From contig NC_014962.1 in assembly GCF_000186345.1 (NCBI RefSeq), positions 868,001-932,000 of the forward strand: a stretch of DNA of 64,000 nt, given 5' to 3'. The stretch's first letter is position 1; every line of letters begins with the position of its first letter. Below the pieces are notes generated by a model. The model was not told the DNA's origin. It did no database searches and saw only the letters and a program-made list of their open reading frames with translations. The stretch is from Isosphaera pallida ATCC 43644 (GTDB lineage: Bacteria > Planctomycetota > Planctomycetia > Isosphaerales > Isosphaeraceae). Shown one piece after another: positions 1 through 16,021 of the stretch. The translations under genes and the position numbers were made by a program.

Positions 1-1453
1 GGATGGTCTTGTCCTTGAGCGTAGGGTCGTCAAGCGTGCGCTCCTGGGGTTGCTTGGCGTTGGCCGACTCCAGCAGACGCAGGGTGAACTTGGGCACCAT
101 TTGACCCACCCAGCGCTGGGCGAAAGCCGGCTGAGGGTCGGCGAGGGGTGGCGGAGCCTCCCCTTCGTCCACACCGGGCAGACCGCCGTCGGCGGCCATG
201 CGGAACCGCCGCGCCAGGTCCTCCAATTCCGCCCCTTCAGGCATCAGTTCCCGAGCACGGGCGATCATCTCCTCCAGACCGGCCCCCTCGGGCAGCTGCT
301 TCTGAAGTCGAGAGATCATCTCTTCAATTTCACGGGCGTTCGGATTTTCTTTGCGGAATTGGTCGATGCGGCGACGGATCGCCTCGGCGTCGGGGTTATC
401 TCGGCGGAACTTCTCGATCGCCTCCCGAATTGGTTTGGCGTCGGGTCCTCCCTCGCCTTGGCGGAGTTGATCGATGATTTCCTCAAGACGGGCCGCGTCG
501 GGTCCGCCGGGACCGAAGCGGGCGATGAGGTCCTCCAATCCGCCGCCGGGTTGGTCGGGCGTCTTCTTTCCGTCGGGGGTGTCCTGGGCGTAGGCCTTGG
601 CCAGTTCGACCACCTTGACTCGTTGCTCTTGGGGCAGAATGAAGGCTGCATCGTCGGGTTGGGACGTGATGACGCCGGCGTTCCAACCGGCGTAGGTCAG
701 AGCGACCCTGAGCGCTGCGGGTTGAGCCGGGGCGTCACCCGGTGCGGCCTGGGGTTGGTCCAGCAGGGTTTCGGATTCGATGATCAACAGGCGTTCGGGG
801 TCGAGAGTCAAGCGGGTGGCAGCCAGGTTGGGACGCTCCAGGAGGAGGCGGGGGAAGACCCGGCCGTCCTGTTCCAGCGGTTCGGCCAAGCGGACGCGCG
901 TCTGACCGCCTTCGAGCAGGCCGACGCCGGCTTCGGGATCGAGCAGGAAGCGCAACGGCACCTCGGCGGCCCGACCGTCGGGGCTTCCCGCCAGGATCGC
1001 TTTGATTTGGGGATGGCGATCCAGCAGAAGCGTCCAGGAGCTGGGCAGGGGACCCGTTAGGATCTCGCGGGTTTTGAGGCTGGACTGGTCGATCACCACC
1101 CGGTCGGGCGCGGCCTGCAACTCGAAAACCCCCGCCTTGAGCGCGATGCGACCGTCAGCGGCCCGCGCCAGGCTCAAAGGCTGTGCGACTTCGAAGGTTT
1201 GGTCGCCCCGCCGCGAGCGGACCACGAGGCGGCCTTGGTCGGCGTAGCCTTGAAGATCGCGGTAGGCTCGCGCGACCTGCTCCCAAAGCGCCTTGGCCTC
1301 CGCATCGATCGGCGGGTTGGCGTTAGCGCCTGGCGGATCGTCTGGGGGCGCGGCGATCGCGTGGGCGATCGGATTCGGATGGGCGACCCAGGCGGCCAGC
1401 AGAACGAGCGGGAACATCCGACGGAGCAAGCAATCCAACGAGAATGAAGGCAT
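1..1453 (-). CDS. Exported thioredoxin/redoxin-type protein with 17-residue repeats (partial, C-terminus beyond window)
   Basis: An open frame runs from ATG 1453 off the left edge (484 codons seen). A signal peptide follows either Met1 or Met13 (MFPLVLLAAWVAHPNPIAHA), so the product should lie in the periplasm or cell envelope. Residues about 50-270 look like the lipoprotein-carrier-like sensor domain (DUF2092 type) that planctomycetes often put in front of thioredoxin folds. Residues 306 to about 423 form six or seven helical repeats, mostly exactly 17 residues long. From about residue 450 the text GQMVPKFTLRLLES is the usual entry to an AhpC-TSA/TlpA redoxin domain. The CxxC site would lie just outside the window, so redox activity is inferred. 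It is transcribed in the same direction as the two multihaem cytochromes upstream (gap 255 bp). Not recognised as a named gene. Confidence 0.75.
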   Translation of the reverse strand, partial: MPSFSLDCLLRRMFPLVLLAAWVAHPNPIAHAIAAPPDDPPGANANPPIDAEAKALWEQVARAYRDLQGYADQGRLVVRSRRGDQTFEVAQPLSLARAADGRIALKAGVFELQAAPDRVVIDQSSLKTREILTGPLPSSWTLLLDRHPQIKAILAGSPDGRAAEVPLRFLLDPEAGVGLLEGGQTRVRLAEPLEQDGRVFPRLLLERPNLAATRLTLDPERLLIIESETLLDQPQAAPGDAPAQPAALRVALTYAGWNAGVITSQPDDAAFILPQEQRVKVVELAKAYAQDTPDGKKTPDQPGGGLEDLIARFGPGGPDAARLEEIIDQLRQGEGGPDAKPIREAIEKFRRDNPDAEAIRRRIDQFRKENPNAREIEEMISRLQKQLPEGAGLEEMIARARELMPEGAELEDLARRFRMAADGGLPGVDEGEAPPPLADPQPAFAQRWVGQMVPKFTLRLLESANAKQPQERTLDDPTLKDKTI

Positions 1454-1708
1454 AACCACAGCGCGGACTCCGACGGGATAGGACAAACAGACAATGAGCG
1501 AACCGGTTTCGCCCTGGACGAACCTCAACCATCCCACGAGGCTGGGCCGGGGAAGGAGGTCAGTTGGGAGAAAGGGAATTCAGCGTCTGACACCCAATCC
1601 AATCCCAACCGTGGGATTGCCGACCCGTCCGCCAGGCGCGTTCGACTTCGGAGGATCAAGCCATCTCGTGGTTCGCCGTCTCTCCCATCATAGCTGTTCA
1701 TCGACGGT

Positions 1709-3469
1709 TCACAACGCGCCCGCCAGGGTGCCGAAGGCGGGAGCGACCGCGCGGGGGTCGTACTCGGCTTGACGGCTTAGACGTTCCTTGACCGCCGGAA
1801 CATAGAGCGAATCGGGCGAGGCAGGACGTTGGGCGGCTTGACGTTTGTTCTCAATCACCAAGTGGAGTTGGTCACGCAGCCCGTGAATCGCTTCAACGGC
1901 CCGGGCGTGGTCGGGGCCGCGTTGGTCTGGGGCGATCTCGTCGAGCAGCACCAGCGAGGCGAAGGCCAGTTGCCGGGCCGAGTCGAAGTCGAGGGGGGGA
2001 CGATCCGCGGAGGGCTGGGCATGGTCGGCGATCCGGGCGAGCAACCGCTTGAGATCGGCGTCGTCCAGGGTCAGTTTGCCCGAACGGATTCCGTACCAAA
2101 GTTCGTCGGCCAGATCGCGGGCGAACCGCGCGAGTTCACGGGCTTGGTCGCGGACAGCGCGGGCGTCGCCGAAGGGACGAACGACGAAAGCTGCCGCCAG
2201 ATCGGCCCGACGTTGGGTCCATTCCGCGCGGCGCTGGGCACGTTGCGGTTCGTCCAGAATGTCGATCGCCAGATCCACGAAGGTCGATTGCCAGGCGGCG
2301 AATGGGATGCGTCCTGGTGCGCGGCGGCGATCGGCTAGGTCTTGACGCCAAGCGTCGCGTTTGAGTTCGTGGTGGCAGGTGGTACAGTCGAGAAACGCCC
2401 ATTCCTTGATCCGAGAGGAACGGGGGACGGTGCGGTCGAGTTCCGCGGCCAGAAGCCGCATCGCCTCGCGGAAGGAGACCAAACCACCCAGCAAGCTCCA
2501 GTGGCTTTGTTCGCGTTTGGCGTAGGCGTCGAAGACGCTACGGTCGGTGAAGCCGAGTTCTTTCCGATAATCCTCCGCGTACTTGTCGTTGAACTTCTTC
2601 TCGGCCAACCATCGCCAGTGTTTGGGTTCGTTGTGGGCGAAGCTGACGACCTCGAATCCGGGCAAGGGGGGATGGCCGGCAGCGTACATGTCGTGGGTGA
2701 CGAGCCAAGAGGGGGTGTCCTCAGACGACTCGATCCCCTTGCCGACATGACAGTTGGCGCAACGTTCAGAGGCGGCCAAAGGGTTGCGGGTGTCGAGGAA
2801 GCCCGCCCGGGCGCGTTCGCTCGCGGTTTTGCCGTTGAACTCCTCCGCGGCGGCGTGAGAGAGGTGCCACTTCTCGGCGGGTCCGTGGCAGCTTTCACAT
2901 CCCACCCCTTGACCGATCAAGTCTTGTCGCTTCTCAGCCTTCGCCAACACCTTCGGTTCGGGCAACGCTCCCGGCGGCGCGTGGCAGACTAGGCAGCGGG
3001 CCCGGACTTGGGTTTCGTCGTATCCTAGGGTTTCGATGATCGCTTGTCCCGCTGGTTTCATCACGCTAGCGTGCGCAATCTCGTGCTTGTCCAGTTCAAA
3101 CCAGATTTCATACTGTCCGTTTCCAAGAATCCCGTCATCTTGACGGGAAACGAGGGTTTGACCTGTCAGGCGGGGATCATTCGATTTGGTGTCGCTATGG
3201 TGGCAGTTGAAGCAGTTGTTGTAAGCGAAGCCTTTTCCGAAGAAGACGGTGTCCACCGCGTCGAGCGAGCCGTCGGTGTGCTGGAGATCGTCAGCCTGAA
3301 CCGCTGACGTGGCGGGGAGGTTGGTGGGATGGGTGCGGCGGGCGGGTGGTTGGCCCTCCACGAAGGGAATCAACGCGCCGAAGGCGGCCAACAGCGAGAG
3401 ACCTAACCCTAGGGTCGCCGGGGCAAGCGGGCGGGACGCGACGCGCTTCGAGTTGGGAAGTCGGCTCAT
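1709..3469 (-). CDS. Exported pentahaem cytochrome c (cytochrome c554-like)
   Basis: The 586-residue product has an N-terminal hydrophobic export signal (residues about 16-38) and five CxxCH haem c sites: CFNCH 86-90, CLVCH 159-163, CESCH 191-195, CANCH 237-241 and CTTCH 362-366. The spacing and the GVGCESCHGP and AAGHP motifs fit the cytochrome c554/NrfB-like multihaem families. It should carry electrons in the periplasm or envelope; no catalytic activity can be assigned. The last 200 residues have no haem site and look helical. ATG 3469 is preceded by AGAGGAG. It lies 97 bp after a paralogue with the same haem layout, so the pair probably arose by tandem duplication and may be co-transcribed. 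Confidence 0.88.
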   Translation of the reverse strand: MSRLPNSKRVASRPLAPATLGLGLSLLAAFGALIPFVEGQPPARRTHPTNLPATSAVQADDLQHTDGSLDAVDTVFFGKGFAYNNCFNCHHSDTKSNDPRLTGQTLVSRQDDGILGNGQYEIWFELDKHEIAHASVMKPAGQAIIETLGYDETQVRARCLVCHAPPGALPEPKVLAKAEKRQDLIGQGVGCESCHGPAEKWHLSHAAAEEFNGKTASERARAGFLDTRNPLAASERCANCHVGKGIESSEDTPSWLVTHDMYAAGHPPLPGFEVVSFAHNEPKHWRWLAEKKFNDKYAEDYRKELGFTDRSVFDAYAKREQSHWSLLGGLVSFREAMRLLAAELDRTVPRSSRIKEWAFLDCTTCHHELKRDAWRQDLADRRRAPGRIPFAAWQSTFVDLAIDILDEPQRAQRRAEWTQRRADLAAAFVVRPFGDARAVRDQARELARFARDLADELWYGIRSGKLTLDDADLKRLLARIADHAQPSADRPPLDFDSARQLAFASLVLLDEIAPDQRGPDHARAVEAIHGLRDQLHLVIENKRQAAQRPASPDSLYVPAVKERLSRQAEYDPRAVAPAFGTLAGAL

Positions 3470-3566
3470 CTCCGGCGGCTCCTCTAGAGTGGGATGAGGA
3501 TGAATGGCGAAGGGGTGGTGTTTTCAGGATACGTAGAGAGGTCCGAGGATGAATGTTCGGCTCGAC

Positions 3567-5186
3567 TCAGGGACGGAGTCGAGCCGGTGGGGTAACGGAG
3601 TCGAGTGGGGCCAGACGTTGTAGAGCCGAACGAATCGCTTGGGGATCGGGACCGTTAGGGGTGTCCGAACCGGGCGGGAACCGCAGCGCTTCGGCTAGGC
3701 CCCGAAGACCCTCGATCACCTCGGGACGACGCACCGCCGCGCCCTGGTCGTCGAGGCCCTGAACTAGCGCTGAGAGACCCAGAAAGAGTTGGGCGACGCG
3801 GTCATGGCCCGCGAGGTCGCGTCTCAGACCGTGGCGTCTTAGAGCAGCAGCGACGCCAACTAATTCGGGAATCGTCCAGGTTCGATCGTGCAGCATTCGG
3901 GTCAAGGAAGCAAGAGCCGGTTGACTTGCGGCGGCGAGGGCGGCGACTCGTTTGGGGTCGGGATCAAGTCGGCTCATCTCGACCGCCAGAGGCGCGAGGG
4001 GCTGAACCAAGTCGTGTCGCCTGGCCGCGTGGGCGAGATCGGGCAGCAGAGGCAGGTTCCAGGTGCCCCAAGAGAAGATCGTGACGCCGCGTTGGGCGGA
4101 TTGGGCAGCGAGGTCGTCAGAGATCAAAGCGGTCCAGGAGTCCCAAGGCAGGCCGGAGGTCCGATGGTCGGGGCGGCGGGTCGATCCTCGAATAGGGGTT
4201 TGCGCGAGGTCGCGGTGGCAGGACTGACAGTCGTACTCGGAGAGTTCGGGCCAGGGACGCTCGTGGGCGTTGGCAGCGCGGGCTTCGAGCAGACGAATCG
4301 CGCCCTGGGCGGTGACGCTCTGGCCGACCAACCAGGCTTTGGCCTCCCAGTCGCTTTGGGTTCGGCGTTCGTTACCGTGGTCCCAGTGTTTGGGATAAAT
4401 GGCGTGGTAGGAGGCGAACTCGAACCGCAGACGAGGGTGACCCGCGGCGATCAGGTCGTGGTTGACATCCATGCCGGGGCGTCCGACGTGACAAGCCACG
4501 CACGACTCAGCGCGGTCGGCGATCGTGTCCATCGACCTCATCCCATAGCGGGCCTTCTCGTTGGGGGAGAGGGCCTTCCACCAGTCGGCCACGTGAGGGA
4601 CGGCCCAGGCTTCGGAGGGACCGTGACAGGCTTCGCATCCGACCCCCTCGGTGAAGCGGAACCCAGGGGAAGTGCGAGCCGTGTCGATGTGCTGTGCGAC
4701 GTGGCAGTTGAGGCATTCGCGGTCACGCTCGGGCCGGGGTGCGACCTCGTCAGGCAATTGGCGATAGCGTTTAAGGATGTCGCGCGAGCGCTGAGTCAGC
4801 AGCGAGGCGTGGGCGCGGGTGTGGGGGTCGAGCCGCACCCAGGTCCGATGTTCGGCACCGATTGCGCCCAGGGGGGCCCCATTGGTGTTGTCCACTCCGC
4901 CGTGACACGCCTGGGCCGAACAACTGCCCGACCCCATCCAGGCGAAACGGGCAAACGGGTCAGCCTCGGACCAGGGGAGGCGGGCGTTCGCAGGGGTCGG
5001 GTCGGTCGATTCCACGGCCGCATCGGATGCCCTTGCCAAGGGAACGACTCCGACCACCCGACGAAACACCTCGGTCCCGCCTGCCCAACCTCGGCGTTCA
5101 GCCCCTCCTGCCAAAATCACGATCCCCGCCGCAAGACCGCTGAGGATCAAGCCGACACCACCGCGCCATCGGGCCGCCGATCGCAT
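3567..5186 (-). CDS. Exported pentahaem cytochrome c with one CX4CH site
   Basis: The start is set at ATG 5186, which has an AGGTGG SD and directly precedes a signal sequence (hydrophobic residues about 9-28). The open frame upstream to 5357 adds 57 residues without export character. The 539-residue product has an unusual CX4CH site, CSAQACH (89-95), then CLNCH 158-162, CEACH 184-188, CVACH 229-233 and CQSCH 320-324. GVGCEACHGP and AAGHPRLRFEF match the neighbouring cytochrome, making the two paralogues. CX4CH haem attachment is known in some multihaem families, and the planctomycete group commonly has this first site. Role: periplasmic electron transfer, partner unknown. Confidence 0.87.
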   Translation of the reverse strand: MRSAARWRGGVGLILSGLAAGIVILAGGAERRGWAGGTEVFRRVVGVVPLARASDAAVESTDPTPANARLPWSEADPFARFAWMGSGSCSAQACHGGVDNTNGAPLGAIGAEHRTWVRLDPHTRAHASLLTQRSRDILKRYRQLPDEVAPRPERDRECLNCHVAQHIDTARTSPGFRFTEGVGCEACHGPSEAWAVPHVADWWKALSPNEKARYGMRSMDTIADRAESCVACHVGRPGMDVNHDLIAAGHPRLRFEFASYHAIYPKHWDHGNERRTQSDWEAKAWLVGQSVTAQGAIRLLEARAANAHERPWPELSEYDCQSCHRDLAQTPIRGSTRRPDHRTSGLPWDSWTALISDDLAAQSAQRGVTIFSWGTWNLPLLPDLAHAARRHDLVQPLAPLAVEMSRLDPDPKRVAALAAASQPALASLTRMLHDRTWTIPELVGVAAALRRHGLRRDLAGHDRVAQLFLGLSALVQGLDDQGAAVRRPEVIEGLRGLAEALRFPPGSDTPNGPDPQAIRSALQRLAPLDSVTPPARLRP

Positions 5187-5402
5187 GGGAACCCACCTCG
5201 CTTGGCTGTCATGAGGGTTCGGTTGGGGTTGAAAAGGAACGTCACTCAAGCGGTCAGCTAGACGCGAGCCAACGGCGAACGCATTGATCCCAGCTAATCC
5301 AATCGCGCGTGGTTGATCCAGGTCGCGTTTGGGTGCGAGCTTCGAACTCCAAGGCATCGTGTGGAGCGCCTCAAGGCGAATGGTTCTCGCTCGACTCGCC
5401 TC

Positions 5403-6021: not shown

Positions 6022-7557
6022 TCAAAACGCCGAGGAAACCGTAGGCGTTTGGCTGGAACCCAGAGAGGCAGTGTTGGGCCGATCGGACAGATCGGAGGTC
6101 ACCGAGGTGGTGACGACAGGTGACGGATCGCTCAAAGGGATCGTGGAGGCGACCTCGGGAGCGATGGCCTGGGAATCGATCACGACCGACTCGCCTTCAG
6201 ACAGACCATCGACCACTTCGATCCATTGGGTGTTGGACCGTCCCAAACGGATGGGGCGGATTGTGACTTGATCGCCCTGAGTGACGTAACAGGCTTCGCG
6301 GCCGTCGGCCTGAGTCAACGCAGTGGCGGGGATCACCAAGGCGTCGTGCGACTGATCGGCCACGATTTCGATCTCGCTGTTCATGCCCGGCAGGAGACCG
6401 TTGACTCCGCCGTCCAGCTTGATGTGGGCTTTGTAGGTCTTCACATCCATCGGACGCCCCCGAACCGGTGGTTCGGGAAACTCGTCCACCGAGCTGACTA
6501 CCCCGATGAAGGTCCGGTCTGGCATCGACTCCGTGCGAACTCGCGCCTTCATGCCCGGCTTGACCTGATGCACCACCGACTCGTTGAGACGGGCGACCGC
6601 CTCCATATGTTCCAAGTCGGGTAAGAAGAACAGTTTCTGATTGGTATAGACCTGAGCGCCTTCCACCATCGGGCGGTCGGGGTCGTCGTTGGCGTAGATG
6701 ACCATCCCATCATGAGGAGCGCGAATGGTGCAGTTGGCGATCATCTGCCGAATCTGCTCCAGACGGTTTTCGTGACGTTCAAGACGTCGCCTGCGGCTTT
6801 CCACAATTGACTTGCGGCTCAGAATGCTGGCTTCCAGACCAGCCCGCTGGCGGGGAATCGTGTAGTCGCGATAAACCTGGAACGACCGCAGGATGCGTTG
6901 AACGTCCAGTTGCGCTTTGGCGAGGTTGCGCTCCTCGGAACGCAACTGGGAAAGCGACATGTAACCCCGATCCACCATCCGCTTGGTCCACTCGACCCGA
7001 TCCACCAGCCGAACCTGATCCGACTCGGCTAACGCCAGCTGCCCCTGATAGTTCTCCAGGGTCTGGGGGGCCAACCCGTCCAGAAACTCGTGGCGTGCTG
7101 CTTCGGCGACCTCCAGATCCAGTTCGGCTTGACGCAGCTCGAACCGTGACTCCTCCACCTCAAGGGTCTGCTGGAGCTCCATCTCGACGTACTCGGAGGA
7201 GTCCAGTTCGCAAATCACGTCACCCTTGCGGACCAAGGTTCCCTCGGGGACCAGTCGGAGGATGGTTGAGAGTCCGCTGGAGGTTCGTCGGGAACCTGAA
7301 GAGTAGACCGAAAATTGGGTCAACTCACAAACGACATTGGTTTTGGTCGTGCTGTCGATTTCGCCGGCAGTTCGGATGACCACATCCAGGACGCCCCGGG
7401 AGACAGGGCAAACCAAGTTGGGGGGCAACTCGACAGAGACGCCCGCAGGGGCCCAGAACGTCCAGACAGCGGCGAATGTGGTCGCGGCGACGACCATTCC
7501 AATGACCAGCATGGTCAAAGAGAGACCGCGGCGGGAGGAGGGTGAGGCGGGAGTCAT
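6022..7557 (-). CDS. HlyD-family periplasmic adaptor (membrane fusion) protein, orphan
   Basis: Start ATG 7557 gives a 511-residue protein with an N-terminal membrane anchor (about residues 12-33), while upstream in-frame sequence lacks export features. After the anchor come a barrel-sandwich half (VIRTAGEIDS), a long coiled-coil hairpin (about residues 130-290, rich in Glu, Arg and Leu), the returning lipoyl half (TIRAPHDGMVIYAN) and beta-barrel and membrane-proximal domains ending near VIPATALTQADG. This order is that of RND/ABC periplasmic adaptors, which bridge an inner-membrane pump to the outer membrane. No permease or ATPase gene adjoins it on its own strand. It is divergent from a complete RND adaptor-pump pair, so it may serve another transporter. 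Substrate unknown. Confidence 0.82.
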   Translation of the reverse strand: MTPASPSSRRGLSLTMLVIGMVVAATTFAAVWTFWAPAGVSVELPPNLVCPVSRGVLDVVIRTAGEIDSTTKTNVVCELTQFSVYSSGSRRTSSGLSTILRLVPEGTLVRKGDVICELDSSEYVEMELQQTLEVEESRFELRQAELDLEVAEAARHEFLDGLAPQTLENYQGQLALAESDQVRLVDRVEWTKRMVDRGYMSLSQLRSEERNLAKAQLDVQRILRSFQVYRDYTIPRQRAGLEASILSRKSIVESRRRRLERHENRLEQIRQMIANCTIRAPHDGMVIYANDDPDRPMVEGAQVYTNQKLFFLPDLEHMEAVARLNESVVHQVKPGMKARVRTESMPDRTFIGVVSSVDEFPEPPVRGRPMDVKTYKAHIKLDGGVNGLLPGMNSEIEIVADQSHDALVIPATALTQADGREACYVTQGDQVTIRPIRLGRSNTQWIEVVDGLSEGESVVIDSQAIAPEVASTIPLSDPSPVVTTSVTSDLSDRPNTASLGSSQTPTVSSAF

Positions 7558-8197
7558 GAGCGAGGGCCTCGTGCTGGGAACCGGGTGTCGCGGCGGCCGA
7601 GGTGATTCCGTTTCCTCATTGAGGATGCCCCACAGCACGGTTCGCGCCGATGGGCAGGGCGAGGCAATGAGGAAGAATGGAACTCGGGGCGAACACCACA
7701 AGCTCCGGGCCAGGGGACAGAGCCATTTTCGGACAGGCATGACCGCGTAGCGATCGAATCCGAAGTGGCTTAGGCAGGAGGGAATACCCGACGAGCGGGG
7801 GAGGGGGACCGTCCAGCAGGCTCGTTCGTCTCAAAAAAGCTGATACGAACGCTCACCTCTCGACAAGGACGGACCTTCATATGGATGGAAAGCGTCAGCT
7901 TTGACGCGCCGTCCCTAACTCTTTCGGGACCGACGGTAAAGCTGGCCGTAGACAATCTAAGTCAACACCTCCCCCCTGACAAGTCGAATTTATCCAACGA
8001 CCACGTTGGCGGGGCCGTCCTCAGACGAAACCCAAGCCACGAGGGACTCTTGACGCTCATTTGTCGCTTGCTTAAGGTCAGGAGAAAGTTCCCTCCGCGC
8101 ACCGATCGTTGCGACCTCGCGTCGAACTCCTTCGGGCGCACCTTGCCCATCCTCTACGGATGGTCCAAGCCCTCCCTCTGTCGGAATTGATCCCACC
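7558..8197. other. 640-bp divergent intergenic region
   Basis: This separates the minus-strand HlyD-type gene from the plus-strand efflux adaptor. No frame here has an SD plus recognisable protein character. One TTGACG-N17-TAAGGT pair on the plus strand is listed separately. It is the natural place for control of both transport units. Confidence 0.5.
8050..8078 (+). promoter_or_regulatory. Candidate sigma70-like promoter for the RND efflux operon
   Basis: TTGACG (8050-8055), a 17-base spacer and TAAGGT (8073-8078) lie about 120 bp upstream of the adaptor start. The -35 matches well and the -10 only moderately. Confidence 0.35.
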
Positions 8198-9571
8198 ATG
8201 CCAATCAGCTTCGGATTCCGTCCGCGCGACGGCGACGCCGCCGAAAGCTGCGAGCGGTCGCTCGTGGGGGCGTGCCTGGTCGGCCAATTGCGTTGTGGTC
8301 TCGCGGTCGTTGCTCTGACTACTGGGCTTGCTGGGTGTTCGCAGTCCGGTTCCAGCGCCGGCGTTTCGGAATCCGACATCGTCGAGACCACGGTTCCCAA
8401 AGTCGAGGTCATTCGGGCCGCCGATCACTTATGGCCGCTCACTGCGCGGATTCAAGGCAGCTTGGTGGGCGACGAGCAAGCTCAGATCGGAGCGCGGGTG
8501 GCCGGTCGGGTGGAGTCGGTCACGGTCGACCTGGGGTCGCGGGTGGCGACCGGCGATATTTTGGCGGTCTTGGATCAAAACGAGTTCGCACTCAAAGTCA
8601 GGCTGGCTCAGGCCCGGGTGGCTCAAACCCGCGCGGCGCTTGGGTTGAGCGAGGGGCAAACCCGGGACGATCTGGCGGTTGACCAGGTTCCCAGCGTGCG
8701 CCAGGAAAAGGCGCTGCTGGACGAGGCCAAAGCGCTTTACGACCGCTCGGTGACGCTCGCCGCCCGCAACGCCATCACGCCTGAGGAGTTCCGTCGCTTC
8801 GAAGCCCAGTATCAGGTGGCTCGGGCTCGTCACGCCGCGGCGATCAACCAGGTTGAGGAACTGTTGGCGCAGTATGAAGGGGCGCTGGCCGATTTCGATC
8901 TGGCCCGTCAAGAGCAGGCCGATTCGATTGTTCGGGCCCCGTTCGACGGGATTGTCGCCGAGCGGTTCGTCGCTCCCGGGATTTATCTGGCTGAAGGACG
9001 CCCGGTGGTGACTCTGGTGCGGGTCGATCCGTTGCGTTACCGGGCCGGCGTGCCTGAACGTCTCGCCATGAATGTGGCTCTTGGTCAAGAGGTGCGGATT
9101 TTTCTTGAGGGCCGCGACACGCCGCTGATCGCCCAGGTGACCCGGATCAGCCCGTCGCTTGATGTTCTCAGCCGGTCCTTGACCATCGAGGCCGACCTTC
9201 CCAACCCCGAAGGAGCCTACCGGGCCGGTCTGTTCGCGGAGGCCGAAATCGTGATCGACCCCCAAGCCCGCGCGGTGGTGTTGCCCGCTCAGGCGGTCAG
9301 CGACTTCGCGGGCGTCGAGAAAGTCTGGATGGTCCAAGACGGCCAGGCGGTTGGCCGCCCAATCCAAACCGGTCGCCGCGAAGGACACCTCGTCGAGATC
9401 GTCTCGGGTCTTCAGGTGGGCGATCTGGTGCTGGCCAAGGCCCGCGAAGGCCGCGGCGGTCCGGTCCAGGCGGTGATCGCCCCCGCAGAATCCTCCGCCC
9501 CCGCCGTCGCCGCCGAACCACCCGCCCGTCCACCAGTCCAACCACGTTCTGCCGGCGTTATCATAAATTAA
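8198..9571 (+). CDS. RND efflux periplasmic adaptor lipoprotein (AcrA/MexA type)
   Basis: The 457-residue product carries a long N-region, a hydrophobic stretch and a lipobox (TTGLAGC, Cys47), so it is probably a lipoprotein facing the periplasm. IGARVAGRVESVTVDLGSRV is the first lipoyl half, a coiled-coil hairpin spans about residues 140-245, and SIVRAPFDGIVAERFVAPG is the second lipoyl half. A beta-barrel and a membrane-proximal domain (VVLPAQAVSDF) follow, with a Pro/Ala-rich tail. It precedes the HAE1-type pump gene by 278 bp and should form a tripartite efflux complex with it. No outer-membrane TolC-type gene is in the window. SD is weak (GGAATT). Substrate cannot be deduced. Confidence 0.88.
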   Translation: MPISFGFRPRDGDAAESCERSLVGACLVGQLRCGLAVVALTTGLAGCSQSGSSAGVSESDIVETTVPKVEVIRAADHLWPLTARIQGSLVGDEQAQIGARVAGRVESVTVDLGSRVATGDILAVLDQNEFALKVRLAQARVAQTRAALGLSEGQTRDDLAVDQVPSVRQEKALLDEAKALYDRSVTLAARNAITPEEFRRFEAQYQVARARHAAAINQVEELLAQYEGALADFDLARQEQADSIVRAPFDGIVAERFVAPGIYLAEGRPVVTLVRVDPLRYRAGVPERLAMNVALGQEVRIFLEGRDTPLIAQVTRISPSLDVLSRSLTIEADLPNPEGAYRAGLFAEAEIVIDPQARAVVLPAQAVSDFAGVEKVWMVQDGQAVGRPIQTGRREGHLVEIVSGLQVGDLVLAKAREGRGGPVQAVIAPAESSAPAVAAEPPARPPVQPRSAGVIIN

Positions 9572-9849
9572 GTCTGTCAGATTCTGTCTGAATAAAATCT
9601 AGAAGCATAGGATAATCAATTGAATTGGATTACGTCACATTGGGCAACGCGAAATCATTTGAATGTTGAGTTGATCCTGATCGGGTCACCACCGTTGGAC
9701 CGCGACGGCGACCCTCCCGCCACCCCGTGTGTTCACGCCCGCTGTCGCGTTTTGAGATGTCGGGCGGATTCGCGTCTCCCGCCTCCCTCCTCCCGCCACC
9801 GACCTGCTCAACGGTTTCCTCTCCCGACCCGATACGGAGCTTTCCCGCC
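9572..9849. other. AT-richer spacer between RND adaptor and pump genes
   Basis: The first 120 bases are markedly AT-richer than the surroundings and contain TCAGA-TTCTG-TCTGA (about 9577-9591), a short inverted repeat followed by ATAAAAT. This could be a weak attenuator or operator. In-frame codons upstream of the chosen pump start (from 9727) look non-coding. Confidence 0.35.
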
Positions 9850-12800
9850 GTGCAGAAGCTGGCCGAAATCTGCGTCAAACGTCCGATCTTCGCTTTGATG
9901 TTGATGATGACGCTGGTGGTCTCCGGCAGCGCCGCCTACTTGGAACTGGGGGTGGACCGCTTCCCGAAACTCGACCTGCCCACCATCGCCGTGGTGACCA
10001 ATTACCCCGGCGCGACTCCCGAGGAGGTCGAAACGGAGGTCTCGCGGATCATTGAGGACGCCGTGGCGCGGGTCTCGGGCATCGACGAGCTTCGATCGAT
10101 CTCCTGGGACGGCAGTTCGTTTGTGCTCATCACCTTCAATCTCGACGTGGATATCAATGTCGGCTCGCAGGATGTACGCGACGCGGTCAACTCGGTGCTG
10201 AATCGGCTGCCGCCGACGATCGACCCGCCGATCATCCGCAAAAGCGACACCGAAAGTTCGCCGATCATCACCCTGGCGGTCTCGGGACAACGCGACCCCC
10301 AGGAGCTTTATGTGCTGGCCGATCGCGCGGTCAAGCAGATTCTGGAAAGCGCCCGGGGGGTGGCCGAGGCTCGAATCGCGGGAGCCTCCGAGCGAGCGGT
10401 GCGGGTGGAGATCGAAGCGTCCCGCCTGGCGGCCCACGGTCTATCGATCACCCAGGTGCGTGACGCCATCGCGCGTCAGAACCTCGAACTGCCTGGCGGA
10501 CGGGTTGAGACTGGGGTCAAGGAACTGGGGTTGCGCACCTTAGGACGTTTAGAGGCGGCCCGTGAGTTCGATGATCTGGTCGTCAGCAGCGGTCGAGGCG
10601 CGCCCGTGCGGATACGCGACCTGGGGCGGGTCATCGACGGTACCAAGCAGGTCCGTACCCTTTGCCGTCTCGACGGCGTGCCCGCGGTCGTGGTGGAGAT
10701 TCAGCGCCAGTCGGGCGCGAACACGATGGAGGTGATTCACGCCGTCAAGGAGCGTCTCGAGCGCTGCCGCGAGTTGCTGCCCCGCGACGTGACCCTCAAC
10801 ATCATCCAGGACCAATCGCGCTACATCGAAGCCTCGCTCCATGAGGTTTCCAACCACTTGATCATCGGCAGCATCATGGCGAGTCTGGTAGTTCTGGTCT
10901 TCATGAAAAGTTGGCGGTCCACGATCATCGCGGCGGTGGCCATCCCCACCTCGATCATCGCCACCTTCGCTGCCATGAAAGCGCTGGGATTTACCCTCAA
11001 CAACGTCACCATGCTGGCGCTCGTGTTGATGGTTGGGGTGGTGATCGACGACGCCATCGTGGTGCTTGAGAACATTTTTCACTGCATCGAGGAAAAGGGG
11101 ATGGACCCCTTCACCGCGGCAATCGAGGGGACCCGCGAAATCGGTTTGGCCGTGCTAGCCACCACGCTGTCGCTGGTGGTGGTGTTCCTGCCGGTCTCGT
11201 TCCTGAACTCGGTCACCGGGCGGATGATGTACGAGTTCGGCGTGACTGCGACGGTGGCGATTCTTGTGTCAATGCTGGTCTCCTTTTCGCTGACCCCCAT
11301 GATGTGTTCGCGGATGCTCAAGCCGACCCGCCAAGCGATCGCCGGCGCGCCGGGCGCTCTTGAGCAGCCTCACAGCCGTCGGGGCTTCTACCACGTCATT
11401 GAGGTCGGCTACGAACGTTGTCTGGCCTGGTCGATGCGTTGGCGGGGCCTGGTGCTGTTGCTTTGCGCGGCGACTCTGGTTTCGATCCTCCCACTTTACA
11501 ACATGGTCAAGCAGGACTACGTTCCCACCAACGTGGATGAAGGTGAGTTCGAGGTTGGCTTCCGCACCCCCGAGGGGATCTCGGTGGAGGCGATGGACAA
11601 GACCCTGACAATCGTGGAAAACGAGGTCCGCTCGATTCCCGGTGTGGTTCAGGTCCTCTCGACCGTGGGCACCCGCGGCGCAGGGTCGGTCAACTGGGGC
11701 AATCTTTACGTTCGTCTGGAACCAATCGAGGAGCGGACCTTCTCTTTCAAGCGGTTGCTCTACGGCCTTCTCAAAGGGGATCCCGGCGAAGCGTTCCGAG
11801 GCAACTATACCCAGCGCGACGTGATGACGGCGGTACGCGAACGGTTGCGCCAATATCCCGACCTCCAGGCGTCTACCCGCAACCAAACCTCGCTGCGTCA
11901 AGGCGCTCCGGTCGATTTGGACTTCAACTTGGTTGGACCCAACATTGAGGAACTCATCCACTACTCCGAATTGCTCAAAGCCAAAGCGGAGACCCTGCCA
12001 GGGCTAGTGGATGTCTCCACGACGCTTCAGATTGAAAAGCCCGAACTGCTCGCGCGAATTGATCGGGAGCGTGCCGCGGCGCTAGGGGTTGAAGTGGGCG
12101 AGATCGCCGAGACGCTCCGAATCGCTGTTGGTGGAGATGAACGGGTGTCGCGTTACCGTGACGCTCAACTCGACGACGTGTACGATGTGGAGCTGCGTCT
12201 GATCGGAATCGACCGCGCCAGTCCTGAGGCGATTTCGCAGTTATATGTCCGCGCCGCCTCCCCGCCCCGTTTGAGCGAGTCGGAAATCAAGGGAATGATC
12301 CCGGTTAGCAACACTGCGGCAACGGGCACCTTCGGGTTGGGAACCACGATGGGCGGCCCTCGCACTACATCGATGGAAAGCGCGGGGCTGACCCGCTTGG
12401 ACAACCTCGTGTCGTTCTTGCCCCACCTTTCGGCCACTCGGATTGACCGGATCGACCGCATGAGGTCCGTGGGTATTCGGGCCAACATCGCTCCAGGTTA
12501 CGCCTTGGGCGATCAAATCGCCTTGATCAACCAACAGGTCGCTACCCTCGATCTCCCCCCCGGCTTCGCCACCTCGGTGCGCGGACGGGGCCGCGAGTTG
12601 GAGAAAACCTTCGGCGATCTCCAATGGACGATCGTTCTCTCATTCCTCTTTATGTATATCATTCTCGCCGCTCAGTTTGAACATCTGCTCCATCCTGTCA
12701 CGATCTTGACCACCTTGCCGCTGGCGATCCCGTTTGGGCTAATCTCGCTGGAGCTGGGCGGGGAGACCCTCAACTTGTATTCAGCGCTGGGGGTTCTGGT

Positions 12801-13230
12801 CTTGTTCGGGGTGGTCAAAAAAGCAGCGATTCTCCAGGTGGACCACACCAACCAGTTGCGGGCCAAGGGGATGGAACGTTTGCCGGCGATCATGAAAGCT
12901 AACCGCGACCGTCTGCGTCCCATCCTCATGACCACGGTGGCCTTCGTGGCAGGCATGGTGCCGTTGCTCGTGGGGACCGGTCCCGGCGCGGAGGAGCGGC
13001 GTTCCATCGCCGTGCTGGCCTTTGGCGGCCAATCGCTGTCGTTGCTGCTGACCCTGGTGGCCGCTCCCGTAATTTACTCCTACCTCGATGATTTGGGACG
13101 GTTGCTCCGTCCGCGGTGGGTCCAACAGGTGCAGAACGAAACCCAAGAAAACGGCGAGCAACCCGCCACGCTTCCCGAGCCAATTGCCGCCGTTGCTGCT
13201 GTTTCGGCCGCGCAGGCGTCGAGGGGTTGA
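9850..13230 (+). CDS. HAE1/AcrB-type RND efflux transporter
   Basis: GTG 9850 is chosen because CGGAG lies 10 bases upstream and the product then begins as AcrB-type pumps do (MQKLAEICVKRPIFALML). The 1126-residue protein has the usual layout: TM1, a large periplasmic loop, TM2-6, a segment linking the halves, TM7, a second periplasmic loop and TM8-12. The proton-relay pair Asp400-Asp401 lies in GVVIDDAIVVLENI, matching AcrB Asp407/Asp408, and a Lys pair at 990-991 (GVVKKAAILQV) matches AcrB Lys940. The periplasmic domains bear the docking sequence typical of the superfamily. It is an inner-membrane, proton-driven exporter working with the upstream adaptor. The C-terminus is a short Glu/Ala-rich cytoplasmic tail. 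Confidence 0.93.
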   Translation: MQKLAEICVKRPIFALMLMMTLVVSGSAAYLELGVDRFPKLDLPTIAVVTNYPGATPEEVETEVSRIIEDAVARVSGIDELRSISWDGSSFVLITFNLDVDINVGSQDVRDAVNSVLNRLPPTIDPPIIRKSDTESSPIITLAVSGQRDPQELYVLADRAVKQILESARGVAEARIAGASERAVRVEIEASRLAAHGLSITQVRDAIARQNLELPGGRVETGVKELGLRTLGRLEAAREFDDLVVSSGRGAPVRIRDLGRVIDGTKQVRTLCRLDGVPAVVVEIQRQSGANTMEVIHAVKERLERCRELLPRDVTLNIIQDQSRYIEASLHEVSNHLIIGSIMASLVVLVFMKSWRSTIIAAVAIPTSIIATFAAMKALGFTLNNVTMLALVLMVGVVIDDAIVVLENIFHCIEEKGMDPFTAAIEGTREIGLAVLATTLSLVVVFLPVSFLNSVTGRMMYEFGVTATVAILVSMLVSFSLTPMMCSRMLKPTRQAIAGAPGALEQPHSRRGFYHVIEVGYERCLAWSMRWRGLVLLLCAATLVSILPLYNMVKQDYVPTNVDEGEFEVGFRTPEGISVEAMDKTLTIVENEVRSIPGVVQVLSTVGTRGAGSVNWGNLYVRLEPIEERTFSFKRLLYGLLKGDPGEAFRGNYTQRDVMTAVRERLRQYPDLQASTRNQTSLRQGAPVDLDFNLVGPNIEELIHYSELLKAKAETLPGLVDVSTTLQIEKPELLARIDRERAAALGVEVGEIAETLRIAVGGDERVSRYRDAQLDDVYDVELRLIGIDRASPEAISQLYVRAASPPRLSESEIKGMIPVSNTAATGTFGLGTTMGGPRTTSMESAGLTRLDNLVSFLPHLSATRIDRIDRMRSVGIRANIAPGYALGDQIALINQQVATLDLPPGFATSVRGRGRELEKTFGDLQWTIVLSFLFMYIILAAQFEHLLHPVTILTTLPLAIPFGLISLELGGETLNLYSALGVLVLFGVVKKAAILQVDHTNQLRAKGMERLPAIMKANRDRLRPILMTTVAFVAGMVPLLVGTGPGAEERRSIAVLAFGGQSLSLLLTLVAAPVIYSYLDDLGRLLRPRWVQQVQNETQENGEQPATLPEPIAAVAAVSAAQASRG

Positions 13231-13243
13231 GCAAACGCGAAGA

Positions 13244-13265
13244 CCTCCCTCACGATTGAGGGAGG
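13244..13265. terminator. Hairpin shared by convergent genes
   Basis: CCTCCCTCA (13244-13252), loop CGAT, TGAGGGAGG (13257-13265): a perfect 9-bp stem. It sits 14 bases after the RND stop and overlaps the last codons of the convergent UvrA-like gene. No clear T-run follows on either side, so it may end transcription only partly in each direction. Confidence 0.6.
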
Positions 13266-16021
13266 CTTGGCGTGTGGTCCGCGTTGTGTCGGGAGGGAGT
13301 CGAGCTGACGCGAGGCGGACCCTGAAAGATGACCCGACCGCCTCGGTCTCCGGCTCCTGGGCCTAGTTCGATCACCCAATCGGCCCAACCTTCCAGTTCG
13401 GGACGGCTAGAGGTGGCTACTAGGGTATGTCCCAACGCCGGCAACGAACGCAGACGGTCTAGCACCCGGGACCACTCGCTGCGATGTAGTCCCCAGATCG
13501 GCTCTTCGACCAGAAAGAGCGATTTGGGACCCCGCGACGAGCGTTCCACGGCAGCGGGCGAGGTGGCCAGAAACCCAGCCAGCCGCAACCGACGTGCTTC
13601 GCCGTCGGAAAGGCTTGTCAGGGGTTGGCCCAGACGGAGATGATCCAACCCCAGCTCGAGCGGCGCTCGCAACCGGGCTTGAATCTTGGGCTTGTTTTTG
13701 AACAGGGCAAACCCCTCGCGGATTGTAAGATCCAAGATGTCGGCGATGCTCCGATTCTGATAGGTGACGTCGAGAATCTCGGGTCGGAACCGTTTGCCAC
13801 CGCAGTCCGGGCAGGTGGCCGAGACGTCGGGCAGGAAGGCCAGGTCAAGGGTGACGACCCCCAGACCCTTGCAGGTTGAGCAGCGCCCGCCGGTCGAACC
13901 GATCCCGAAGAAGGCCGCCGGATAGCCGCGTTGCTTGGCCAAGGGAGTCGCGGCGAAAACGCGCCGCAGTTCGCCCGCGATTCCCAACACGCCCGCCGGA
14001 CAAGACCGCGGCGAGCGGATCGGCGGACCCGAAGCGATCACTTCCAACCCTTCGAGATGTTCGCAGCCTTCGATTGCCTCGAAGCCGACTGATTCATGGG
14101 CGCGTGGGCGAGGGTTGGCGTCCGCAGAGGGTCCCTTTTGGATTCGGATGGCCTCCGCGACCGCCCAGGCCAGTACGTCCAAAACCAGGGTTCGTTTGCC
14201 TGCGCCTGAGACGCCGGTCACAAGCGTCAGGCCCCCGAGGGGAATGGAGATGTCGATTCCCCGCAGGTTTCGGCCCCGCGCTCCTGTGAGTCGAAGCCAG
14301 GGACGATCGGGGGGGCGCTCGAACCGAGGCCGCGACGACTTGCGAGCACGCGAGAACCGAGCGGAATCAGGAGGGGAGTTTGACAAGGTCGGGGGCTGGG
14401 ACGCGACAGCCCAAGGAGTCGCCGAAGGGTTGGCTATTAGGCGTCCGGTGGGGGTGTCGGCCTGAGCGAGTTGGTCGGGCGTCCCCTGGAAGACCACCCG
14501 GCCGCCTTCCGAACCGGAGCCGGGACCCAGTTCGATCACCCAATCGGCGGCTCGGATCAAGTCGGGGTCGTGATCGACCACCACGAGACTTTGGCCCTGA
14601 TCGCGGGTTCGTCCCAGCGCTTCAGACAAGCGGCGAATGTCGCAGGGATGGAGTCCCGTGGAGGGTTCGTCCAACACCCAGAGCAGACCCGATAGACCCG
14701 AGGCGATCGCTCCAGCCAGGATGGCCCGAGTCGCCTCGCCCCGCGCTAAGTCGCGGCAGGGACGATCCAGTGGAAGATGACCCAGTCCCAATTGATCCAA
14801 CGTGGTCAGGATCGCTAGAGCGCGTCGGCGGGCCGAGGTGGTTCGGGGCGACTCGCCGGACGAAGCCGCTACGTTGGTCACGGGTCGCATTAAGCGTTCC
14901 GTCATTTGTTCGACCGTGAGCGCTTCCCATTCGAGTAGATTGGCGTCCTCAAGTCGAACCGCGAGGGATTCGCTACGCAACCGGAGACCCTGACACGTTC
15001 CGCAGACCGCCGAGCCGTGGGGGTCGGGGCGTCCCTGATCGTCCAGCCGCCCGACTCCTCGACAAACCGGGCAGGCTCCCAGGGGATTGGTCTCGAAGAA
15101 CAGTGGTGGAGTGGGTTCCAGAAACATACGCGCACAGGACGGACAACGCCAGTCGTTGCGGGCGTCGATCGCTCCGTTGGGCAAGGCGTCGCTGACGATT
15201 CGGCAAAGTCCCCCCCCTCGCGCTAGCGCCGTTGAGAGCGAATCCAGACGCCGCGCGGGGTTCTCGTTGCCGCGGATTAAACGGTCCACAATCACCCACC
15301 ATTCCCGACAGGTCTGTTTGAGGAGATCCTCGTCCTCGAAGGTTCGCACGCGGTCGTTGAACTGGGTTTTGGCTCGATCCCAGGGGACCACGCGGGTGTA
15401 GCCTTCGGCACGGAGCGTGTCGAGCGCGACTCGGCGATTCACGTTGGGACCGACTTCGACGGGGAAGCCAATCGCATAGCGAGTTCCCTCGGGGAGCTGA
15501 TCCAAAAGGTGAGCGAGATCGGTAGCGGAACGAGGCCGGATGCCGACTCGGCAGTCGGGACAGACAACGACCCCCTCCAAGCTGAAGAGGGTGGCCAAGG
15601 CGTGCCGCAGTTCAACGACGCGGGCCAGACTCGTGCGACGACCGCTGCTGATCGCGTCGGTCGCGGAAAGAAACCGGGCGGTGGGGATGCCTTCCAGCGT
15701 GTCGGCGTCGGGTCGCTCCAAACGTTCCATCGCGCGACGGGAGGCGGCGGGGAAGGTTTCAATGTAGCGGCGGCGTCCTTCGGCGTGCAACACGTCGCGG
15801 GCCAGGGTGGTCTTGCCCGCCCCGGTGGGCCCTGTGATCGCCACCCAACAGCCCCGGGGCAGATCCAGGTCCAGACCGTCGAGGTTTCGCGCCCGCACGC
15901 CGCGAAGTCGCATCCAGCCGAACCGTCCCACCCGCGAATTGGCAGTGCCGTCGCGCAGCAGAGCGTCCGCGGCCAGGCGCGGCGTGGGCGTGGAGACGGT
16001 GGAGGAACGGCGTCGGGCCAT
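13250..16021 (-). CDS. UvrA-like ABC ATPase paralogue with degenerate signature motifs
   Basis: The 923-residue protein has the UvrA architecture. The first Walker A is GPTGAGKTT (64-72). The zinc-site cysteines are CPDC, CPSC and CPVC, with FFETNPLGACPVCRGVG, followed by an extra CGTC pair. The first signature is at about 424 and Walker B is LWVLDEPSTGLHP. The second Walker A is GVSGAGKRT (about 603), the second zinc module runs CSTCKGLGVV to TCPDCGGKRF, and the second signature (LSDGEARR, about 802) precedes LFLVEEPIWGLH. UvrA binds damaged DNA in nucleotide excision repair. Here the first signature reads LARGEATR instead of LSGGEAQR, the second Walker A has Lys-Arg in place of Lys-Ser/Thr, and the second Walker B has VEEP. 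That suggests an accessory paralogue rather than the housekeeping UvrA. It follows the acyltransferase gene by 71 bp and is probably in the cmk operon. Confidence 0.85.
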   Translation of the reverse strand: MARRRSSTVSTPTPRLAADALLRDGTANSRVGRFGWMRLRGVRARNLDGLDLDLPRGCWVAITGPTGAGKTTLARDVLHAEGRRRYIETFPAASRRAMERLERPDADTLEGIPTARFLSATDAISSGRRTSLARVVELRHALATLFSLEGVVVCPDCRVGIRPRSATDLAHLLDQLPEGTRYAIGFPVEVGPNVNRRVALDTLRAEGYTRVVPWDRAKTQFNDRVRTFEDEDLLKQTCREWWVIVDRLIRGNENPARRLDSLSTALARGGGLCRIVSDALPNGAIDARNDWRCPSCARMFLEPTPPLFFETNPLGACPVCRGVGRLDDQGRPDPHGSAVCGTCQGLRLRSESLAVRLEDANLLEWEALTVEQMTERLMRPVTNVAASSGESPRTTSARRRALAILTTLDQLGLGHLPLDRPCRDLARGEATRAILAGAIASGLSGLLWVLDEPSTGLHPCDIRRLSEALGRTRDQGQSLVVVDHDPDLIRAADWVIELGPGSGSEGGRVVFQGTPDQLAQADTPTGRLIANPSATPWAVASQPPTLSNSPPDSARFSRARKSSRPRFERPPDRPWLRLTGARGRNLRGIDISIPLGGLTLVTGVSGAGKRTLVLDVLAWAVAEAIRIQKGPSADANPRPRAHESVGFEAIEGCEHLEGLEVIASGPPIRSPRSCPAGVLGIAGELRRVFAATPLAKQRGYPAAFFGIGSTGGRCSTCKGLGVVTLDLAFLPDVSATCPDCGGKRFRPEILDVTYQNRSIADILDLTIREGFALFKNKPKIQARLRAPLELGLDHLRLGQPLTSLSDGEARRLRLAGFLATSPAAVERSSRGPKSLFLVEEPIWGLHRSEWSRVLDRLRSLPALGHTLVATSSRPELEGWADWVIELGPGAGDRGGRVIFQGPPRVSSTPSRHNADHTPSLPQS

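Follow-up and report, generated by a model that had tools for sequence, protein, structure and literature searches.

What do two adjacent genes for exported multihaem cytochromes contribute to the planctomycete Isosphaera pallida ATCC 43644? The genes, labelled A and B here, occupy positions 1709-5186 of the window, i.e. the whole stretch of 64,000 nucleotides that we analysed (C2:868001-932000, C2 being a contig of 5,472,964 bases in a genome of 5,529,304 bases and two contigs). Comparison with other genomes makes it reasonably probable, in our judgement, that both proteins serve as the periplasmic electron relay of a trans-envelope conduit of the porin-cytochrome type, in which the haem at a CX4CH motif of A would be covalently bound and B would be restricted to Planctomycetota. 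The two genes and their haem sites are the following.

3567..5186, minus strand: gene A, 539 amino acids, exported pentahaem cytochrome with one CX4CH and four CX2CH motifs, a c554-like haem domain and a C-terminal helical bundle
4902..4922, minus strand: haem site 1 of A, CSAQACH (CX4CH), residue 89
4701..4715, minus strand: haem site 2 of A, CLNCH, residue 158
4623..4637, minus strand: haem site 3 of A, CEACH within GVGCEACHGP, residue 184
4488..4502, minus strand: haem site 4 of A, CVACH, residue 229
4215..4229, minus strand: haem site 5 of A, CQSCH, residue 320
1709..3469, minus strand: gene B, 586 amino acids, exported pentahaem paralogue of A with five CX2CH motifs
3200..3214, minus strand: haem site 1 of B, CFNCH, residue 86, at the position equivalent to the CX4CH of A
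2981..2995, minus strand: haem site 2 of B, CLVCH, residue 159
2885..2899, minus strand: haem site 3 of B, CESCH within GVGCESCHGP, residue 191
2747..2761, minus strand: haem site 4 of B, CANCH, residue 237
2372..2386, minus strand: haem site 5 of B, CTTCH, residue 362

A conserved pair of pentahaem paralogues

Gene A is transcribed first and is followed by B after a gap of 97 nt; its start was placed at the ATG at 5186, a further upstream start at 5357 being also open. The two proteins are homologous (26% identity over 356 alignment columns, BLASTP E 3e-23), both begin with a hydrophobic export-type segment, as judged by eye, and each contains ten cysteines, every one of them inside a haem motif. 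At least four CX2CH motifs never arose in 20,000 shuffles of either sequence. An earlier sequence-only reading of this region had described adjacent exported paralogues with five haem sites each, sharing GVGC(E)(S/A)CHGP and AAGHP motifs, and this description holds, the second motif appearing as AAGHPRL in A and AAGHPPL in B. The matching haem spacing that it also reported turns out to be similar, not identical (69/26/45/91 residues in A vs 73/32/46/125 in B), and the CX4CH protein that it ranked second does carry the motif but is the product of the first gene in the direction of transcription.

Class-wide counts refer to 297 genomes of the class of the host (Planctomycetia), as grouped in the genome search. 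Of these, 107 gave a match to A at E <= 1e-5 and 102 a match to B at E <= 1e-10, two figures that are not independent because each query also matches the other's gene. Searching the phylum with A returned 59 of 294 genomes at E <= 1e-5; short c554-type matches being numerous among them, this search served only to locate loci. The named loci that were counted, numbered with the prefix L, are the best 80 among 313 stretches that were confirmed, 62 of these 80 spanning at least 12 kb. In 69 of 73 cases, some genomes being counted twice, a same-strand A lies upstream of the B gene at a distance of no more than 4.5 kb; the upstream A of the B genes in L101, L103 and L106 is missing or would fall past the contig end, and the B-like gene of L188 stands apart. 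Judged from this gene order, the A-B pair is an old module. B genes without CX4CH are present in 31 of the 48 Planctomycetota named loci vs none of the 32 others, and 46 of 47 CX2CH rows together with two CX4CH B genes formed one set in a phylogenetic tree (98% support in the Shimodaira-Hasegawa-like approximate likelihood-ratio test), which the gene of L188 joins weakly. It was a quick tree of the 80 named loci and 18 of 52 longer stretches, after removal of rows that had fewer than four CX2CH, that combined the absence of CX4CH with fewer than five CX2CH, or that exceeded 760 residues; as its root was not inferred, B can be proposed as a Planctomycetota duplicate of A with that reservation.

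Two observations on individual loci deserve mention. The B gene L113:7157-9199 has only four CX2CH motifs, and matches in the same genome region to the LVIVD-repeat cytochrome introduced below hold an internal stop, either of which could reflect decay or an assembly error. A-like genes also occur in L161, L163, L178, L183, L191 and L197, records titled Candidatus Kuenenia stuttgartiensis, although the title of L197 looks wrong. No description of the A/B pair was found in the literature searched, a body of text that excluded most subscription papers.

The CX4CH site

The residues C89, C94 and H95 of A are invariant in an alignment of 27 A proteins from the class and in a wider one of 72 A-type sequences that include members from Acidobacteriota, Binatota, Myxococcota and Pseudomonadota. 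When proteins were assigned by their best match to A or B, the motif not being used for selection, CX4CH was found in 141 of the 145 distinct proteins closer to A. The four others are a fragment truncated where its locus ends, two B-like proteins that match A and B almost equally well, and a ten-haem protein that is only distantly related. Of the 67 proteins closer to B, 65 lacked CX4CH and two had it. The 143 proteins carrying it display 86 distinct motif strings. By this conservation, the CX4CH that the sequence-only reading had pointed out in one paralogue is a real and conserved site and not a chance occurrence. Two findings speak against it as the essential difference between A and B. The B genes L166:11201-12772 and L167:11336-12850 have CX4CH at haem site 1 followed by four CX2CH, and in an alignment of 46 LVIVD cytochromes one haem site reads CX4CH in 29 proteins and CX2CH in 14. 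This interchange of the two motifs at homologous sites argues that CX4CH holds haem as CX2CH does, and the site of A would bind a normal, covalently attached haem.

The contrary reading, that CX4CH in A is no haem site at all, may appeal to the fact that most c-type haems sit at CX2CH, and a CX4CH did arise by chance in 0.7% of the A shuffles. We regard it as extremely unlikely given the three residues that stay invariant amid so many motif strings, the CX2CH that B has at the equivalent position and the swap of both motifs at one LVIVD site. In addition, haem at a CXXXXCH site was demonstrated by mass spectrometry in MmcA of Methanosarcina acetivorans (PMC11024163); this protein resembles A as a multihaem electron carrier but is an archaeal heptahaem partner of Rnf.

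Histidines outside the motifs provide candidate ligands for the haems of both proteins. Positions 122, 243, 250 and 267 of A are invariant and 198 is at least 90% conserved in 72 sequences (the window protein and 71 of 89 A-type proteins), and the same applies to positions 129, 259, 266 and 284, and to 205, respectively, of B in 30 sequences (the window protein and 29/29 B-type proteins of the named loci). These five histidines per protein would be enough for five bis-His haems, in a pairing that is presumptive.

Recurring partner genes and a putative conduit

All-against-all comparison of the open reading frames (ORFs) around the A/B pair retrieved a set of recurring families: a b-type membrane protein, a decahaem cytochrome, an iron-sulphur (Fe-S), NuoG-like and cyclic-nucleotide (cNMP)-binding protein, a NuoE-NuoF fusion (NuoEF), a beta-barrel-like protein, a multihaem protein with LVIVD repeats, an HbpS-like protein, a metallo-beta-lactamase (MBL) protein resembling cAMP phosphodiesterases and a nucleotide cyclase. 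At least one of seven partner families lies near A in 55 of the 62 named loci of at least 12 kb, namely the decahaem cytochrome in 46, the Fe-S/cNMP protein in 42, the b-cytochrome in 39, NuoEF in 29, the LVIVD protein in 27, the barrel in 17 and the HbpS-like protein in 15, and A directly adjoins barrel or LVIVD genes in several phyla. With the LVIVD protein as an independent query (presence at E <= 1e-60), 98 genomes of the class have both A and LVIVD, nine only A, three only LVIVD and 187 neither; among 45 genomes of the host's own family both A and LVIVD are found in 22, A alone in one plus two with weak A matches, and LVIVD alone in one. Two species encode 15-haem fusions in which a decahaem part precedes a CX4CH pentahaem part (L037:7301-10471, the same as L199, and L226:505-3732; mutual identity 46%).

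Exactly ten CX2CH motifs are present in 71 of 83 decahaem partners, and the decahaem partner considered as MtrA/DmsE scores 38.6 bits for the model TIGR03508 (cut-off 192.2). Both WX3HX13H motifs are conserved in 70 of 73 b-cytochromes and SGxxG as well in 61, and the b-cytochrome of I. pallida (L035:16925-18118) combines two WX3HX13H, SGXXG and five hydrophobic segments. Of 36 barrel proteins, 35 terminate in F or Y, as is the rule for outer-membrane barrels. The Fe-S/cNMP protein of I. pallida reaches 24.7 bits against PF13247 (cut-off 26.2); a class-wide search with this protein (129/297 genomes at E <= 1e-40) was kept out of the co-occurrence analysis because its matches came from several protein families, among them NuoG-like N-termini and shorter cNMP/Fe-S proteins. 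As for the LVIVD ten-haem cytochrome, L151:7232-11545 and its relatives are 59-69% identical to that of I. pallida in near-full-length rows, one second copy being 48% identical, and it is more conserved than A or B.

Haem motifs, candidate histidine ligands and paralogy are evident from sequence, as are A-B order, LVIVD co-occurrence, clustering with redox genes and the decahaem/A fusion. The last four support a dedicated electron chain holding both proteins, and to this extent the proposal of the sequence-only reading stands. In such a chain, electrons would pass between a cytoplasmic NADH module of the NuoEF type, with the Fe-S/cNMP protein, and a b-type membrane protein with five helices and two haems, from which the periplasmic decahaem cytochrome would take them; the CX4CH pentahaem A, with B, would carry them through the periplasm, and the porin-like barrel and LVIVD ten-haem cytochrome would pass them across the outer membrane. 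B may widen the capacity of the relay or offer a second docking partner, and the flow could also run inwards. We infer from sequence the location and order of the carriers, the attachment of haem and the direction of transfer.

Arrangement in the host genome and points against the proposed conduit

The genes for A and B lie at 0.87 Mb on C2 without partner sets, and ten partner queries found no match in the 64-kb window. The region at C2:4.60 Mb contains an A-like gene with CGRRGCH, NuoEF, the Fe-S/cNMP gene, which stands near the b-cytochrome gene, and the decahaem gene, and at C2:4.08 Mb a barrel gene is next to an LVIVD ORF of 1,438 residues (4.3 kb) with nine CX2CH and one CX4CH, 67% identical to that of one relative. 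I. pallida hence holds all parts of the proposed conduit, which we count in its favour. Terminator-like sites around A and B are at chance level (four found vs 3.9 expected).

Several points weigh against assigning A and B to a conduit. Distances between the three gene sets on the contig range from 0.5 to 3.7 Mb, which leaves co-transcription without support. No partner is near A in seven of the 62 named loci, and NuoEF, near A in 29 of them, accompanies it in 0/7 from Pseudomonadota, NADH input therefore not being general. The co-occurrence of A and LVIVD (Fisher p 1.7e-63) is given by a test that ignores common descent, and nine of the 107 A-positive genomes have no LVIVD match, five of these nine with weak A matches only. 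The barrel protein, which we term barrel-like and a putative porin, matches no Pfam family. Cultured relatives are regarded as aerobes, and the periplasmic localisation and redox role of A and B are themselves predicted.

Domain families and alternative explanations

Both proteins belong to the Cytochrome_C554 family PF13435 (gathering cut-off 20.8 bits; A 45.4, B 38.1 bits), which matches 72/72 A-like proteins at E up to 1. The predicted model of A (predicted local distance difference test, pLDDT, 82.0; predicted template modelling score, pTM, 0.80) and that of B (pLDDT 71.8, pTM 0.76) end in a helical bundle. In A (residues ~272-537) it resembles those of EfeO, EfeM, Algp7 and imelysin (Z 11.4-12.0 over 201-205 residues, the next row being at 5.1) and in B (~293-586) the same EfeO/imelysin-type bundles (Z 10.0-11.2), the fifth haem site of both proteins falling inside the matched range. 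These Z scores lie within what a helical bundle can reach by chance, and the resemblance may reflect only a common arrangement. A-like proteins matched 65 Pfam families, the first 25 of which do not include peptidase M75. Foldseek retrieved no PDB match to the model of A at E <= 0.001 and no cytochrome appeared in 50 VIA-align rows for A, but the model is without haem and in the second case one domain filled the list, so that neither result excludes anything.

The family assignment would suit a reading of A and B as nitrogen-oxide enzymes or relays, comparable to cytochrome c554 of ammonia oxidisers and not part of a conduit. Cytochrome c554 has four haems and is not known to carry CX4CH at haem 1. 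Its haems 2-4 and GVGCESCHGP align with A (PDB 1bvb, 1ft5), and in profile comparisons with sequences of solved structures it is by far the best match to the haem core of A (E 5.2e-12, next 2.1e-4). Nevertheless, the c554 equivalog model NF043010 gives A and B 28.0 and 29.8 bits against a cut-off of 400; c554 has 211 residues and lacks both the fifth haem site and the C-terminal bundle, which in A lie outside the c554 match; with five candidate distal histidines, none of the five haems is obviously open, and none of ten neighbour families is a nitrogen-oxide enzyme, the genome not having been searched for hydroxylamine oxidoreductase. We consequently hold this reading to be unlikely. We also consider it rather unlikely that A and B act within the cell's own respiration, between quinol or NADH and a terminal reductase or oxidase, the barrel and LVIVD genes co-occurring only through a shared respiratory island. 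In favour of this are the distance between the barrel/LVIVD locus of I. pallida and A/B and the predominance near A of inner-membrane-type genes over barrel/LVIVD genes (26 vs 11 of 36 loci in Planctomycetota, 16 vs 11 of 17 in Acidobacteriota), but it is at odds with the 98/9/3/187 distribution of A and LVIVD and with the direct adjacency of A to barrel/LVIVD genes in several phyla.

The sequence-only reading had further suggested that A, B and the product of the downstream redoxin-type gene make up a periplasmic chain of their own, in which the CX4CH haem possibly sets the potentials of the two cytochromes apart.

2..1494, minus strand: redoxin-like gene with a long N-terminal region, continuing outside the window and whole at L034:11573-13537

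This gene exists, its start being 171-214 nt from B, and the adjacency of the three genes, with the short A/B gap, would fit that chain. The product matches PF00578 and PF08534; its thioredoxin site, however, reads WATWSAAS, without CxxC, and no homologue was found in the other loci searched (BLASTP, E 1e-5). Lacking redox cysteines and homologues at those loci, it was rejected as a partner of A and B. Moreover, B overlaps at its end with a promoter-like match (two such matches in the region vs 0.5 expected from shuffles) and CX4CH is found in two B genes as well, all of which makes the proposed chain very unlikely. Tandem genes for TlpA-like thioredoxins with WATWCGPC lie some 6-8 kb beyond B (L034:5888-6625 and 6832-7926).

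Relation to known systems

Relatives of the conduit that we propose for A and B have already been described, and its distinctive traits are probably the CX4CH pentahaem pair and the NADH-type input in many loci. According to He et al. 2017 (PMC5566968), the inner-membrane proteins of the porin-cytochrome conduits (PCCs) PCC3 and PCC4 are marked by two WX3HX13H, SGXXG and five helices; PCC4, among whose holders Planctomycetes are named, has periplasmic cytochromes with four, five and ten haems and no extracellular one, and in its subgroup II an Fe-S gene (pfam13247) is upstream of that for the inner-membrane protein. The inner-membrane signature is a point of likeness, to which a putative porin, five- and ten-haem cytochromes and a candidate Fe-S partner may be added. 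The large LVIVD ten-haem protein, the A/B pair and the NuoEF module of many loci set the present system apart from PCC4 as described there. In none of the seven Pseudomonadota loci that were checked did a separate four-haem gene appear. With regard to the porin, a barrel-like gene is near A in 17 of the 62 loci, and that of I. pallida lies at a distant locus.

Group 1 PCCs of metagenome-assembled genomes from karst are reported to combine a large ten-haem gene of 4-5 kb with an adjacent outer-membrane porin, and in 7/11 of them a ferredoxin-NADP reductase is encoded close by (PMC13264449, 2026). The LVIVD/barrel pair of I. pallida resembles them in size and haem number. The section concerned mentions neither LVIVD repeats nor an Fe-S/cNMP protein, nor a pair of pentahaem cytochromes with CX4CH. 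The LVIVD cytochrome also matches ExtM of the Geobacter Ext systems (NCBIfam, E 2.5e-16) but, with 59.1 bits against the NF040943 cut-off of 800, it is not ExtM.

Biological implications

A cytochrome cluster in L107 contains genes for a nucleotide cyclase (9178-11082), an MBL protein resembling class-II cAMP phosphodiesterases (3890-4756) and an Fe-S/cNMP protein (11104-13632), an arrangement in which cyclic-nucleotide control of electron entry is possible. It is tempting to extend this to the roughly one third of sampled Planctomycetia with A and B (102/297), supposed aerobic heterotrophs included, which would then carry an extracellular conduit gated by cyclic nucleotides, with NADH entry through NuoEF, an Fe-S/cNMP valve set by the cyclase and the phosphodiesterase-like protein, and A/B as the bridge to a surface LVIVD cytochrome. 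We advance this as a tentative idea, on the improbable side, against which counts that a cyclase is near A in only ten and the phosphodiesterase-like gene in only four of the 80 named loci.

Cultured hosts of both genes include Zavarzinella formosa DSM 19928 (L168) and Gemmata sp. IIL30 (L169), and the exchange of CX4CH and CX2CH at the same haem site constitutes a natural series in which the role of the longer motif can be addressed. Two genes with general labels are in this way turned into a testable hypothesis on how many Planctomycetota and Acidobacteriota may exchange electrons with their surroundings.

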